A stretch of 33,621 bases of DNA. It comes from Acidobacteriota bacterium. GTDB lineage: Bacteria > Acidobacteriota > Blastocatellia > UBA7656. A model generated the notes under the pieces. It saw only the letters and a list, made by a program, of their open reading frames with translations, did no database searches and was not told the DNA's origin. Shown in pieces: positions 18,850 through 24,909 of the stretch. Each line of letters begins with the position of its first letter. The first letter of the stretch is position 1. The translations under genes and the position numbers were made by a program. The stretch is taken from assembly GCA_016201275.1 (NCBI GenBank), contig JACQDB010000078.1, forward strand, positions 1-33,621, written 5' to 3'.

Positions 18850-19965
18850 ATGGGCGTGGCGATTAGAGAGCGTATCGTTAAAGATAAATCGAAAAGCAAG
18901 GCGCGAAATTCAAAAGACACCAGCGCAACGCAGAGAAAGAAGAATAACTATATCCGGCTCTACCTCGATCTTTACCATAACCGAAAGCGTTGGTCAGAGT
19001 TTCTTGATCTATATTTCTATGAGAAAGACGCGAAGCAAAGAAAGGAGTCGTACAGAGTTGCTGAAGAGATCAAAAAGATTCGTGAACAGGAGCTAATCAG
19101 TAGAGACTACGGTATTGAGTCGCCGAGCAAAACTAAAGCTGATTTCGTGGCGTACTTTGAAACCATTGCCAAGACCAAACCAGCGAGGTATTCTGCGTGG
19201 CATAATTGCAGAAAGCATCTACGCGATTTCACCAGCGGCTACCTGCAATTCAAGAACATCTCTGAAACATGGCTTGAGTCTTACCAAGCGTATCTACTCG
19301 GCAAAGTAGCGGCTAACACGGCGCACACTTATTTCGCGCATATTAAGATCGTACTGAGAAAGGCGTTCAAAGAAGGTTATCTACGAAGAGACTTTTCATC
19401 GCTCGTTCCGAATGTGAAAAAGCTAGACACAAGCAGGGAATTTCTGACGACGGAAGAACTACAGCGGCTATTAGATACTCCATGCCAGCACAGCGAGATT
19501 AAGAGAGCCTTTCTCTTTGCCTGTCGCACCGGCTTGCGATTGGGCGATATAGAGGCACTGACGCCGAGCCACATTCAAAACAATCAAGTTAAAGTCCGGC
19601 AGCAAAAAACGGATGGATTTGTAACCGTGCATCTTGATAGCACAGCACGATTCCTGCTCTACGGCACAGACAACATAAGCCTCATGCCGCACACAAAAAT
19701 CTTTGACCTGCCTAGCAGACCCTATATCCTTCGCACTCTCAGGAAATGGGCTACGGATGCGAAGATTGATAAGAAGATTTCCTTCCATGTCAGTCGTCAT
19801 ACATTCGCAACCGCTCTGTTAAGCGAAGGCAGTGATCTCTACACCGTGTCGAAGTTGTTGGGACATCGCAATATGCGGACAACGGAGATTTATGCGAAGG
19901 TTGTTGACGCGAAGAAAAAAGAGGCGATAGAGCGCCTTCCCGCCTTAAAATTCGGAGCCAGTTAG
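18850..19965 (+). CDS. Tyrosine recombinase / integrase
   Basis: A 371-residue site-specific recombinase. It has a basic N-terminal arm-type region (about 1-95), a SAM-like core-binding domain (about 96-190) and the catalytic domain (about 195-365). The catalytic set is complete: R230 (GLRLGD), K253, H313 and R316 (HVSRHTF), H339 (GHRN) and nucleophile Y348 (TEIYAKV). The overall form resembles integrases of conjugative or phage-type islands. The ATG at 18850 follows AAGGAG with good spacing. The codon usage looks richer in A/T than that of the housekeeping genes. The gene borders a region of insertion sequences; no tRNA or clear att repeat was found. Confidence 0.92.
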   Translation: MGVAIRERIVKDKSKSKARNSKDTSATQRKKNNYIRLYLDLYHNRKRWSEFLDLYFYEKDAKQRKESYRVAEEIKKIREQELISRDYGIESPSKTKADFVAYFETIAKTKPARYSAWHNCRKHLRDFTSGYLQFKNISETWLESYQAYLLGKVAANTAHTYFAHIKIVLRKAFKEGYLRRDFSSLVPNVKKLDTSREFLTTEELQRLLDTPCQHSEIKRAFLFACRTGLRLGDIEALTPSHIQNNQVKVRQQKTDGFVTVHLDSTARFLLYGTDNISLMPHTKIFDLPSRPYILRTLRKWATDAKIDKKISFHVSRHTFATALLSEGSDLYTVSKLLGHRNMRTTEIYAKVVDAKKKEAIERLPALKFGAS

Positions 19966-20035
19966 GGACACAACATAGAGTAAACCAAACAATTCACCAC
20001 CACAAAATATAGTTGCTTTTGTTTGCTTTTTTTCA

Positions 20036-20329
20036 TTGACACGGCATCCATTTTCGATTACCCACTTAAATGCTGCGGGAAATAGAAAAGCGAAAACACA
20101 AGTTTTCCAGTAGCAAAATCAAGGGGTTCAAATACGCATTAACACCTGCGTTTGTGAGTCAGTCATTCAGGTTCCAGCTATCAGCCGTCATGCCTAAATT
20201 GCCGCTATCTAAGCAGGGATAGCGCGAAGCCAACTTCAACTTACTTGGCTGGCAAAGCGACCACCCTCAGCGGTGAGTTCGCTTGCAGTGGAAAGACTAT
20301 GATGAGGAGCATCCTTTCAAAAGGAACGC
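20036..20329 (+). ncRNA. Structured leader / candidate RNA element
   Basis: This stretch between the integrase and a truncated gene contains several hairpins: gaaaac/gttttc (20092-20107), acgca/tgcgt (20134-20151), cgctatc/gatagcg (20203-20224), agccaa/ttggct (20228-20250), and gcaa-a-gcga/tcgcttgc (20252-20286) with an inner cacc/ggtg. The last, tcctt-tcaa-aagga (20312-20325), places the ribosome site AAGGA in a stem arm. A perfect -35 TTGACA lies at 20036-20041, but the -10 is weak. It may be a translation-controlling leader or a free RNA. No known RNA family was recognised. Confidence 0.4.
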
Positions 20330-20402
20330 ATGGCAAACAATGAAATAGAAAAAGAATTATTAGAAATCAAGCAATGGCTAATCGCACAGCCTCTTGATCA
20401 GC
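20330..20402 (+). pseudogene. 5' fragment of a gene cut by the IS21 element
   Basis: An ATG at 20330 with AAGGA 4 bases upstream opens a frame reading M-A-N-N-E-I-E-K-E-L-L-E-I-K-Q-W-L, then about seven more native codons. After this the frame runs into the AT-rich repeat that marks the IS21 end. Only about 24 codons of the original gene remain. The residue pattern suggests an amphipathic, acidic N-terminal helix. The product is not recognised, and the rest of the gene was not found on the far side of the mobile elements. Confidence 0.5.
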
Positions 20403-20403
20403 G

Positions 20404-20442
20404 ACAATTAGAATTCCCGTTGACGACAATTAGAATTCCCGT
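20404..20442 (+). repeat. IS21 left-end direct repeats
   Basis: The 17-bp sequence acaattagaattcccgt occurs twice, 22 bp apart (two helical turns), before istA. In IS21 elements such repeated end sequences bind the transposase. The first copy may include or abut the flanking host DNA. Confidence 0.7.
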
Positions 20443-20492
20443 TTTTAAAGATGAATGCGACTCTCCAAGTATCTCTTTTTCAGGAGGCTTGG

Positions 20493-21971
20493 ATGGTCAC
20501 AGACAAACAATTCAGGAGGCTTATGACATTTATTCACGACGGGGATGCGCTCTCGGTTGCCGCTGCCAAAACTGGCATGGATGACAAAACCGCCAGAAAG
20601 TATCGCAAACTTGGCAAACTCCCCTCACAACTCAAATCGACTCGTCACTGGCGCACTCGCACAGACGTTTTCAAAGCGGTCTGGGGCGAAATCGAACAAC
20701 TGTTGCTCAACGAACCGGCTTTAGAAGCCATCACCATCTTTGATTATCTTTGTCGCCAATACGAAGGACAATTTCAAGCTGGGCATCTGCACACGCTGCA
20801 ACGTCGCATCAAGGCCTGGCGCACCCAGCACGGACCACCAAAAGAGGTTTTCTTTCCCCAACAACATACCCCAGGCTTGATGGGGCAATCGGACTTCACC
20901 CACATGAGCAAACTGCAAATCACCATTGCCGGGGAGTTCTTCGCCCATCTGTTTTATCACTTCACCTTGACCTATTCGAACTGGGAGACCGGCTCCATCT
21001 GTTATTCGGAATCCTTCGAGAGCCTATCGGGCGGTTTGCAAAACGCCTTATGGGAGTTGGGCGCAGTGCCTTTCGAGCATCGCACCGATTCGCTGTCGGC
21101 AGCCGTCAACAATCTCTCCGATTTAGAAGAGTTCACCCAAAACTATCAAGGCTTGTTGGCGTACTATCATCTGCGAGCCAGCCATAATAATCCCGGTCGC
21201 GGTCACGAAAACGGCGATGTCGAACAATCGCATCATCGCTTCAAGCAAGCTGTAGATCAGGAGTTGTTACTGCGTGGCAGTCGCGACTTTACCAGTCTAA
21301 AGGACTACGAGGCTTTCCTCACCAAGATGCTCAAGCGCCGCAACCAAAGTCGGCAAGAGCGCCTTCAGGAAGAACGAGCGCATCTGCAAGCGCTGCCGCC
21401 GATGCGCCTGCAAGATTACAGCCGCTTGCCTGTGCGGGTGTCGCGCAACGCCACCATCCGCGTCAAAGGCAATCTCTATTCGGTGAGTTCGCAGTTGATC
21501 GGCGAACTCGTTGAGGTACGTTTGTTCAGCGCCAAGTTGGAGATTTACTACGCTGATCAACGCCTTGAAGAGATCCGGCGACTGCGAGGCACTGGAAAAC
21601 ATGCGATCAACTATCGTCATATCATCCATTCCCTGGTGCGTAAGCCCGGCGCCTTTGCCCATTATCGTTATCAAAGTGATCTGTTGCCGCGCTTGCTCTT
21701 TCGCGTCGCCTACGACTGCTTGCGAGAAAACTACCCGGCGACGGCTGAGCGGCAGTATCTGAAGATTCTGGAACTGGCGGCCACCGTCAGTGAACAGCGG
21801 GTCGAGGAAGGCTTGCGCCAGATGATTAAACAGGGTCAGCGCATCAGCGAAGAAAGGGTGCGGCAGTATCTGCAAAGCGCCACGCCGCAAGCCCTGCCAT
21901 ACTGCGTCGAAATCGCACCCGTGCAACTCCAGCACTACGACCTGCTGTTGGAGAGTCAGGAGGTGCGCTGA
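20493..21971 (+). CDS. istA: IS21-family transposase IstA
   Basis: A 492-residue DDE transposase. An N-terminal helix-turn-helix (ALSVAAAKTGMDDKTARKYRKLGKLP) precedes the retroviral-integrase-like catalytic core: D134 (GQSDFTHM), D199 (HRTDSLSAAV) and E244 (ENGDVEQSHH). A C-terminal Mu-type beta domain (about 330-380, RVKGNLYSVSSQLIGE) and a helical tail follow. It looks complete. The ATG at 20493 is chosen because CAGGAGG lies 5 bases upstream; an upstream ATG at 20451 is less well supported. Its TGA overlaps the ATG of istB (TGATG), the usual IS21 coupling. Confidence 0.92.
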   Translation: MVTDKQFRRLMTFIHDGDALSVAAAKTGMDDKTARKYRKLGKLPSQLKSTRHWRTRTDVFKAVWGEIEQLLLNEPALEAITIFDYLCRQYEGQFQAGHLHTLQRRIKAWRTQHGPPKEVFFPQQHTPGLMGQSDFTHMSKLQITIAGEFFAHLFYHFTLTYSNWETGSICYSESFESLSGGLQNALWELGAVPFEHRTDSLSAAVNNLSDLEEFTQNYQGLLAYYHLRASHNNPGRGHENGDVEQSHHRFKQAVDQELLLRGSRDFTSLKDYEAFLTKMLKRRNQSRQERLQEERAHLQALPPMRLQDYSRLPVRVSRNATIRVKGNLYSVSSQLIGELVEVRLFSAKLEIYYADQRLEEIRRLRGTGKHAINYRHIIHSLVRKPGAFAHYRYQSDLLPRLLFRVAYDCLRENYPATAERQYLKILELAATVSEQRVEEGLRQMIKQGQRISEERVRQYLQSATPQALPYCVEIAPVQLQHYDLLLESQEVR

Positions 21972-22354
21972 TGTCGGAAACTCTCAAACCGCAGATTACG
22001 GATTGCCTCAAACAACTGCGCCTGCCAGCCTTCGTCGCCAACTTTTCGCCGCAGGCGGCGCTGGCTGCTAATGAAGGCTGGCCCTATGACCGCTATCTCT
22101 TGAACCTGTGCAAACTGGAATTGGAAGAGCGCGAGCAGAGAAAGATCAAGAAGTTGCAACACTCATCAAGACTGCCAAGAGAGAAAACCCTGAGCGCCTT
22201 TGATCGCAGCCGCCTCAAGAAAGCCGTGGATCGCCAGGTGTCGGCCTTACTGGAAGCCGACTTTCTCGATCGCCGGGAGAACGTCCTGGTGTTTGGTAAT
22301 CCGGGAAGTGGCAAGACCCAACCAAACAACTACCCCTATCGGGCAAGAGGTTAG
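21971..22354 (+). pseudogene. istB: IstB helper ATPase, truncated after Walker A
   Basis: The start overlaps the istA stop. The first ~116 residues match the IS21 helper ATPase: LKQLRLPAFVANF, LEEREQRKIKKLQHSSRLPREKTLSAFD, and the Walker A motif GNPGSGKT. Normal IstB continues with a conserved helix and Walker B for about 130 more residues. Here the frame instead reads QPNNYPYRARG and stops at 22354. The junction near 22318 marks a deletion or insertion that joined the element to a different mobile cassette. ATPase function must be lost, so this copy is probably immobile unless helped by another copy. Confidence 0.88.
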
Positions 22355-22623: not shown

Positions 22624-22845
22624 ATGGCAACTCGACAACCACATCTACCCACAGCCCCGCTTCAGCAAGAGCAACTCTATCTGCCTCTCACCAAGACGCA
22701 GACCGCACAGTCCATCTCGACTCAAGAGGTCTGGCTCACCCTCAATGCCCAGCAACAAGCGCAACTCTTTCGCCAGATGGTGCAAATCTGCTGCAGCCTG
22801 CTGACGACGAGTCATCCCAAGGAGGTGGACGATGAAACGAGATGA
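22624..22845 (+). CDS. Small ORF before serine recombinase
   Basis: A 73-residue product rich in Q and L (TAPLQQEQLYLPLTKTQTAQ, then VWLTLNAQQQAQLFRQMVQI). It has an AAGGAG site about 10 bases before its ATG. It overlaps the serine recombinase start by 14 bases, which argues for translational coupling within one cassette. No domain is recognised. Small partner ORFs of this kind are common beside large serine recombinases of transposons, but their role is not known. Confidence 0.55.
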   Translation: MATRQPHLPTAPLQQEQLYLPLTKTQTAQSISTQEVWLTLNAQQQAQLFRQMVQICCSLLTTSHPKEVDDETR

Positions 22846-23509
22846 GCTTCCGGTCTCTTCTTCCAAGATCACCCTCCGGCATCTTCAGCGACTGGCTTAT
22901 GTGTACGTCCGCCAATCGTCCCCCAAACAGGTCGAGCGCAATCGCGAGAGCCAGTTCTATCAGTACCAACTCTCGCAGCGCGCCCAACAACTTGGTTGGG
23001 GTGCCGAGCGCATCCGCATCATTGATGCCGATCTCGGTTTGTCGGCGCAAGGAAGTCAGTATCGCGATGGCTTTCAGGAACTGGTCGCCGAAGTTTCGCT
23101 CGGTCACGTCGGCATCCTCTTTGGCTATGAAGTCTCGCGACTGGCGCGCAATAACGCGGATTGGTATCACCTGCTCGATCTGGCTGCCGTCTTTGCTACA
23201 CTGATCGCCGATGCCGATGGCACCTATGATCCGCGTCTCTACAATGACCGTTTGCTGTTGGGACTCAAAGGCACGATGAGCGAGGCCGAGTTGCATCTGC
23301 TGAAGATGCGTCTGGAAGCCGGGCGTCTCCATCAAGTACAGCGCGGTGCTTATCGGCAAGCGCTGCCGACCGGATTGGTTCGTCTGGCGGATGGCGCGGT
23401 CGTCAAAGACCCCGACCTTCAGGTGCAGCACGTCCTGGTGATGATCTTCAGCAAGTTCGTGGAACTGGGGAGTTGCCGTCAGGTGCTGCGCTACCTGAAG
23501 CAGGAGTAG
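22832..23509 (+). pseudogene. Large serine recombinase, C-terminally truncated
   Basis: 225 residues remain of a protein that usually exceeds 500. The resolvase domain is complete: YVYVRQSSPKQVERNRES (nucleophile S29), RIRIIDADLGLSAQG, LFGYEVSRLARNNADW, and LKGTMSEAELHLLKMRL. The start of the recombinase DNA-binding domain (RGAYRQALPTGLVRLADGAVVKDPD) follows. The reading stops at TAG (23507-23509) within LKQE. Continuing past it would read V-L-L, the expected family sequence, so a CAG-to-TAG change is possible; 10 bp later the IS701 element begins. The rest of the gene is not present beyond that IS. The start has a strong AAGGAGGT site. Confidence 0.85.
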
Positions 23510-23515
23510 GTTCTC

Positions 23516-24854
23516 TTAGCTCGACTTTATCCATTTGCTCTTTGAAAAAATAACGGCAGGCTGTGTAAGCTACAAGACTTTCCACCAAGAAAGGAATTTG
23601 TATGCTGACACTGCCTACCGAACTGTTGCTGGTCATTGTAAACTTTGCCCCGCTGTTCTCGAAAGCGGTTTTCGAACCCGCCAAAGTTTTGCTGGTCGGT
23701 GCCCTTCTGGCTCCCGGCAAACGCACCGTGACGGCTTGCCTGCGCGTCTGCGGCAAAAGCCAGGAGCAGAACTTTCAGACTTATCATCGCGTCCTCAATC
23801 GCGCTCGGTGGTCGACTTTGGCTGCCAGTCACATTCTCCTCAAGCTCTTGCTGGCGACCTTTTCGCCAAGCGGAACTTTGGTTTTCGGACTCGATGACAC
23901 CCTTGAGCGACGGCGCGGCAGTAAGATTGCCGCCAAGGGGATTTATCGCGACCCGGTGCGTTCGTCGCACTCGCATTTTGTCAAAGCCAGTGGCTTGCGT
24001 TGGCTCTGTTGTATGTTGTTGACCGAGATTGGCTGGGCGGGGCGGGTTTGGGGGTTGCCGTTTTTGAGTGTGCGGTGTCCCTCGGAGCGCTTCTACCAGG
24101 AGCGCAAGCGGCGTCATCAAACGCTGGTCGAACGGGCTTGGCAAATTATTCAACTGCTGGCGCGCTGGTTGCCGACGCGCCCTTTGATCTTTGTTGCTGA
24201 CAGTAGTTTTGCGGTCTTGGACTTGCTCAACAAAGTCCGGGGTTTGCCCAATGCCAGTCTGATTACGCGCTTGCGCTTGGACGCGGCGTTGTACGAGGTC
24301 GCGCCGCCACGAAAGCTTGGTCAGAAAGGGCGATCACGATTGAAAGGCAAACGCCTGCCGACGCTGGCGGCTCGGCTCCTTGATGAGAGTACCCAGTGGA
24401 CGAGGGTGAAGGTGGAGAATTGGTATGGTAAAGGCGAACGCGAAATCGACATTTGTAGCGACACTGCCCTGTGGGATCACGCGGGAAAGCCGCCCGTCGA
24501 GATTTGCTGGGTGTTGATTCGCGATGTCAAAGGCGAGTTTCAAACGCAAGCCTTGCTCTCGACCAAGGTGGAGCATCAACCGGAAGAAATCCTTGCGTGG
24601 TTTAGGAGACGATGGCAGATGGAAGTGACCTTTGAAGAAGGGCGGGCGCATCTGGGAATCGAGACGCAACGGCAAGGGAATGATTTGGCAATCGGTCGCA
24701 GCACGCCGTGTTTGTTGGGGCTGTTTTCGGTGGTGACATTGCCATTTTTCAATGTCCGGTTCAGAGGGTGAAGTCATAAAAATCCCACGAGCGTTATTTG
24801 AGCGCTTAACAGATACGCTCTGCTACGCTGCGTGATGGATAAAGTCGAGCTTAG
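23516..24854 (+). mobile_element. IS701-type insertion sequence with TTAG duplication
   Basis: The inverted ends agctcgactttatcca (23518-23533) and tggataaagtcgagct (24836-24851) are perfect over 16 bp. The element proper spans about 23520-24850 (1331 bp), flanked by the direct repeat TTAG (23516-23519, 24851-24854). This fits the 4-bp YTAR target recalled for the IS701 family. A single transposase gene fills it. It looks like the most recent insertion of the island. Confidence 0.88.
23602..24771 (+). CDS. IS701-type DDE transposase
   Basis: A 389-residue DDE transposase (DDE_5/PF13546-like). Likely catalytic residues are the first aspartate in VFGLDDTLERR (D98 or D99), D200 in FVADSSFAVLDLL, and the glutamate in RRRWQMEVTFEEGRAHLG (E341 or E345). 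The end, TPCLLGLFSVVTLPFFNVRFRG, is shorter than in relatives I recall (usually above 400 residues), so the C-terminus may have been trimmed by a frameshift or internal deletion. The start ATG at 23602 has an AAAGGAA site. It is wholly inside the IS ends. Confidence 0.85.
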   Translation: MLTLPTELLLVIVNFAPLFSKAVFEPAKVLLVGALLAPGKRTVTACLRVCGKSQEQNFQTYHRVLNRARWSTLAASHILLKLLLATFSPSGTLVFGLDDTLERRRGSKIAAKGIYRDPVRSSHSHFVKASGLRWLCCMLLTEIGWAGRVWGLPFLSVRCPSERFYQERKRRHQTLVERAWQIIQLLARWLPTRPLIFVADSSFAVLDLLNKVRGLPNASLITRLRLDAALYEVAPPRKLGQKGRSRLKGKRLPTLAARLLDESTQWTRVKVENWYGKGEREIDICSDTALWDHAGKPPVEICWVLIRDVKGEFQTQALLSTKVEHQPEEILAWFRRRWQMEVTFEEGRAHLGIETQRQGNDLAIGRSTPCLLGLFSVVTLPFFNVRFRG

Positions 24855-24909
24855 AAAGTAAGGCAATACATCCTGATTGTCCGACTAAATTTCAGTTGAG
24901 GAGAACTAC

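Follow-up and report, generated by a model that had tools for sequence, protein, structure and literature searches.

Class II ribonucleotide reductases (RNRs) of the NrdJ type use adenosylcobalamin, and in some bacteria RNR genes are controlled by a cobalamin riboswitch. The consensus of the box recognized by the repressor NrdR, ACACWATATATWGTGT, reportedly goes back to Rodionov and Gelfand 2005. NrdR sites are paired 16-bp palindromic boxes, which in several bacteria lie 15–16 bp apart (PMC12051234). A further element, the nrdJ RNA motif, is named with reference to Weinberg et al. 2017 and is reported from Streptomyces (PMC8388888).

Here, we describe a locus of an Acidobacteriota bacterium (GCA_016201275.1, contig JACQDB010000078.1) in a window of 33,621 nucleotides, i.e., the whole stretch of DNA that was analysed, in which an NrdR-type operator, a promoter, and an nrdJ-type leader precede a fragment of another gene (Table 1). 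We interpret this stretch as a decayed paralogous copy of an nrdJ control region consisting of repressor sites, promoter, and folded leader, and give this reading, jointly with the dual control proposed below, a probability of roughly 0.7. The cobalamin riboswitch (RF00174) is likewise a leader RNA tied to B12-dependent metabolism; the leaders described here differ from it in having no match to its model at E-values up to 5–10. With the NrdR operators of RNR genes (PMC12051234) they share paired 16-bp boxes, a spacer of 15–16 bp, and an NrdR gene in the genome, yet here the operator is followed by a leader, 330–425 nt long at the intact copies, with a conserved hairpin, and the copy in the window precedes a gene fragment other than nrdJ. 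The nrdJ RNA motif (PMC8388888) resembles these leaders as a structured RNA from the non-coding part of class II RNR gene regions; it is reported from Streptomyces, and what sets the present leaders apart from it is the lack of an Rfam-model match at permissive thresholds.

Table 1 Features of the operator, leader, and interrupted gene, in positions of the window
Feature	Position	Strand	Details
Tandem NrdR-type operator (putative)	19968-20015	+	boxes 19968-19983 (ACACAACATAGAGTAA) and 20000-20015 (CCACAAAATATAGTTG), spacer 16 bp
Promoter	20036-20064	+	-35 TTGACA 20036-20041; -10 position TACCCA 20059-20064; aligned with seven nrdJ promoters
nrdJ-type 5' leader, degenerate paralogue	20066-20329	+	264 nt; the intact copy in this genome has 354 nt
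Hairpin 1	20203-20224	+	8 bp closed, 7 perfect Watson-Crick, -10.0 kcal/mol
Hairpin 1 loop GCAGG	20213-20217	+	hairpin homologous to the GCAGGA-loop hairpin conserved in nrdJ leaders
Hairpin 2	20228-20250	+	6 bp, -4.9 kcal/mol
Hairpin 3	20252-20286	+	interrupted stem, -14.1 kcal/mol (fold)
Hairpin 4	20312-20325	+	5 bp, -2.8 kcal/mol; AAGGA in 3' arm
5' fragment of a gene, MANNEIEKELLEIKQWLIAQP...	20330-20394	+	ORF; 34% GC, against 52% in the window
IS21-family remnant	20395-22354	+	Pfam Mu-transpos_C_2 and IstB_IS21
IS21 end repeats CGACAATTAGAATTCCCGTT	20402-20421, 20424-20443	+	repeat search
istA	20451-21971	+	IS21-family, Pfam
Truncated istB	21971-22354	+	IS21-family, Pfam

A search of the whole genome (G000; 6.84 Mb, 162 contigs) with positions 19966-20460 returned one further matching place, located on contig 4 (E 7e-38), and the alignment of the two copies spans the NrdR-box region through to the start codon. 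The match on contig 4 is the leader directly upstream of a 1551-aa ORF (L004 923-5578) with ribonucleotide reductase barrel, all-alpha, TSCPD, and intein domains. This ORF is the class II (B12-dependent) ribonucleotide reductase NrdJ, and the genome has a single RNR large-subunit gene. The leader thus has a homologue with an intact downstream gene, namely nrdJ; the copy in the window itself is followed by no intact nrdJ, its 21-codon fragment bearing no likeness to NrdJ. Overall, the two leaders are 77.7% identical with 116 gap positions, and the window copy is without stretches of about 43 and about 56 nt that are present on contig 4. Identity is distributed as a mosaic, with 93% over 20072-20174 (103 bp; L004 5802-5904), 75% over 20182-20254, and about 70% for all that lies beyond the 5' 103 nt. 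Because leader identity between species is merely 48–65%, this pattern points to gene conversion or to partial duplication in recent times, as judged from the alignment.

G000 is a Blastocatellia-like acidobacterium; relatives known by name that have its nrdJ type are Chloracidobacterium sp. UBA7656 and the Blastocatellia bacteria AA13, nzgw74, and Chersky_418. NrdJ with a matching N-terminus was found in 7/7 genomes of the Blastocatellia family, G000 and six relatives. This N-terminal type was not found in another 155 genomes of the class (E 1e-8) or in 393 others in an evenly drawn set of the phylum (E 1e-25). The genome_contigs collection yielded four of the same species and one MAG labelled Chloroflexi that has no TTGACA block. 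Upstream of nrdJ, each of the seven genomes carries a ACCACAATATNTTGTA-like box, TTGACA, and a TA-rich -10, followed by 330–425 nt to the ATG. The seven nrdJ leaders and the window copy form the set of eight leaders compared here, in which re-use of the leader before a second gene was apparent in G000 only. No conserved upstream leader peptide was detected, the short frames differing among the leaders of the species, nor was a terminator established that all leaders share. The stretch ATCAAGGGGTTC (20116-20130; L011 ~1374-1386) is common to the 5' leader domain of the G000 nrdJ, the window copy, and the nrdJ of G002, and is not obvious in leaders of other genera.

The operator was evaluated by counting matches to the 16-bp consensus ACACWATATATWGTGT, with a maximum of 32 for a pair. 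Both boxes in the window score 12/16 (shuffle p ~0.001), and they make up the sole pair scoring at least 22 on either strand of the 33.6 kb. Pair scores at the nrdJ promoters range from 21 to 24 of 32, and over a further 186 kb of strand sequence (~250 kb scanned in total) pairs scoring at least 22 occurred exclusively at nrdJ promoters. NrdR protein is encoded in 8/8 genomes tested. Two 16-bp boxes, a spacer of 15–16 bp, and NrdR in the genome thus mark these as putative NrdR-regulated promoters. The pair in the window lies upstream of the -35, as do the best-scoring pairs in G005 and G001, whereas in the other nrdJ copies the second box overlaps the promoter. Compared with TATACT, TAAACT, or TAATAT in the nrdJ copies, the -10 of the window is degraded.

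All four hairpins claimed in the original prediction are present, and the start codon ATG at 20330 follows downstream of the fourth. The first is homologous to a GCAGG(A)-loop hairpin kept, with varying stems, in all eight leaders, where the motif sits in the loop of a stem 117–209 nt before the ATG. When the motif was held fixed and its flanks were shuffled, a comparison of stability within each leader found the native stem to be stronger than the shuffles in every one of the eight (p 0.002–0.04; window p 0.024). The combined Fisher p is 1.3e-8, a value more extreme than the true one because the sample, seven species plus the paralogue, includes the related pairs window/contig 4, G004/G006, and G001/G005. 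Five of the leaders could be aligned, and 90.7% of their cells are paired, as against 18–44% with the partner slid by 1–3 columns, and changes on both sides of the stem occur at two pairs; column covariation did not exceed chance in a letter-dealing control (281/500). Since column covariation is modest, it is the retention of the stem that carries the argument. The hairpin arms are placed at a different offset in contig 4 and in the window, the latter using the inner CGCTATC/GATAGCG arms. A covariance model (R1) derived from five leaders gave a single strong hit per genome in the five source genomes, in each case at nrdJ, with chance-level matches elsewhere. As R1 matched G002 weakly (13.7 bits, at the correct place) and missed both the window copy (no match at 20192-20267) and the intact contig 4 leader, the model is narrow and its consensus loose.

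The remaining stems fared differently, so that of the covariation envisaged for all four only that of stem 1 held. At hairpin 2, contig 4 can pair CUCA/UGAG at the same place of the two-sequence alignment, which gives this stem weak support from one pairwise comparison, namely two possible compensatory changes that depend on where a single gap is placed. For hairpin 3, which gained no support, the alignment with the contig 4 nrdJ leader shows no clear counterpart. The fourth hairpin does hold the ribosome site in its 3' arm; across all leaders, Shine-Dalgarno (SD) accessibility was not lower than with shuffled upstream sequence, and occlusion of the ribosome site by this hairpin was rejected as a shared mechanism, being no better than in shuffled leaders. 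Visual inspection of some leaders suggested a long-range GUUGU/ACAAC pairing; it is not kept in all and was also discarded.

An unlikely alternative to a regulatory RNA is that the nrdJ leaders are nothing more than long untranslated regions that evolve fast, that NrdR alone controls the genes, at the level of transcription, and that the hairpins have no regulatory role. The poor conservation of the leader sequence between species (48–65%), the non-conserved SD occlusion, and the absence of an Rfam match would agree with this, as would the folding energy of the window leader, which is only slightly stronger than that of dinucleotide shuffles (z -1.34 and -1.40), 11/100 and 19/200 of which folded as well. 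The chance of meeting, within 135 nt, two perfect stems of at least 6 bp that do not overlap is p ~0.02, and for three of at least 5 bp it is p ~0.07. The hairpins on which the original prediction built are real, but their density is suggestive at most as a sign of structure, and with z ~ -1.4 folding energy alone gives no proof of it; the real support for a structured leader is the comparison with related sequences. This comparison argues against plain untranslated regions: a constant loop of 5–6 nt and a stem kept while its letters change are found in eight leaders (combined p ~1e-8) that otherwise diverge between species, and every nrdJ copy has a leader of at least 330 nt. Homology with the nrdJ leaders and conservation of the hairpin across its changing stems thus support the predicted cis-regulatory leader RNA. 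The other possibility offered at the outset, a free structured RNA, gained no support, and a search for tRNA and tmRNA found none.

An integrase ORF (18850-19965; Phage_integrase, SAM-like, and Arm-binding domains) does precede the leader, and insertion sequence genes (istA/istB from 20451) follow it, as first described. The gene behind the leader was indeed cut by an IS21-family insertion, at ~20395, though after ~21 codons and not the 24 initially given, because the IS21 end repeats begin at ~20395. The fragment is AT-rich and unlike NrdJ, a homologue of it was found in none of nine genomes, and no remainder of the gene could be recognised on the far side of the IS region. That region is composite, consisting of the IS21 remnant, a resolvase-type ORF (22832-23509), and a further IS. 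The latter (23514-24855) encodes a DDE transposase (23602-24771) between near-perfect 21-bp terminal inverted repeats (23514-23534 / 24835-24855) and adjoins the other two, i.e., the mobile elements are clustered or nested. The operator before the cut gene hints that this gene may have belonged to nucleotide metabolism. The gene start also matched within an unrelated ORF of G056, a hit put down to chance similarity of AT-rich sequence and rejected. A second gene for an RNR large subunit, found in G004 (L074; 633 aa, Cys-rich C-terminus), was rejected as the identity of the lost gene, since its N-terminus is unrelated and no NrdR-box pair lies upstream of it.

With the integrase ending ~100 bp upstream, the leader had originally been assigned to the cargo of an island; a mobile gene would then have brought its own leader, resembling that of nrdJ by chance. 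The GC content of the fragment (34% versus 52%) and the lack of synteny of the region in relatives would fit this proposal, which we nevertheless consider quite improbable. Operator, promoter, and leader match the nrdJ control region of the host by up to 93%, pattern scans of viral contigs found no copy of the leader, phages and plasmids gave no match beyond IS ends, and the leader is otherwise confined to nrdJ of this family. Homologues of the integrase are only 39–40% identical. Neither a counterpart of the integrase region nor a syntenic empty site was found in the relatives, the latter because they diverge after the YkgJ-like gene. An origin as island cargo is thus unsupported, the family-wide home of the leader being the chromosomal nrdJ.

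A scan of the window with Rfam 15 at curated (gathering) scores gave no match, and a permissive search of the eight leaders, with E-values up to 5–10, gave chance matches only and none to the models of the cobalamin riboswitch or the nrdJ motif. It is therefore very improbable that the leaders belong to one of these known classes, cobalamin riboswitches or the nrdJ RNA motif of actinobacteria, and have diverged beyond the reach of the models, even though NrdJ uses adenosylcobalamin and an RNA motif has been named after nrdJ.

We return to the paralogous nrdJ control region and propose the following model. In the intact form, i.e., on contig 4 and in the six relatives, an abundance of dATP would lead NrdR to bind the tandem boxes at the promoter. 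Transcripts that start nonetheless would carry the structured leader of 330–425 nt, whose GCAGG(A)-loop hairpin may take part in a second, RNA-level cis control of nrdJ. In the window, the same layout of NrdR-box pair, TTGACA promoter, shortened leader with the loop hairpin, and ribosome site led into the AT-rich gene, until the IS21-family element cut the latter after ~21 codons. With its gene interrupted in this way, the window copy has no intact gene left to control. Should the leader be regulatory, an essential enzyme would be under double control in these bacteria, the supply of dNTPs depending on a repressor, NrdR, as well as on an RNA that forms part of the transcript itself, and the window copy shows that such a control module can be duplicated and set before another gene. 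It is tempting, if speculative, to go further and suppose that the class II RNR genes of this family carry an undescribed regulatory RNA that acts together with NrdR, possibly a riboswitch sensing adenosylcobalamin or a nucleotide, and that this module was re-used before a second gene; we hold this as a tentative possibility.

The coding regions behind the nrdJ leaders differ in length. The nrdJ of G000 on contig 4 has intein domains at two places, one of them with a LAGLIDADG domain. G002 and G003 likewise have very long nrdJ frames, of 2180 and 2613 codons, and the frames of G001, G004, G005, and G006 comprise ~900 codons.
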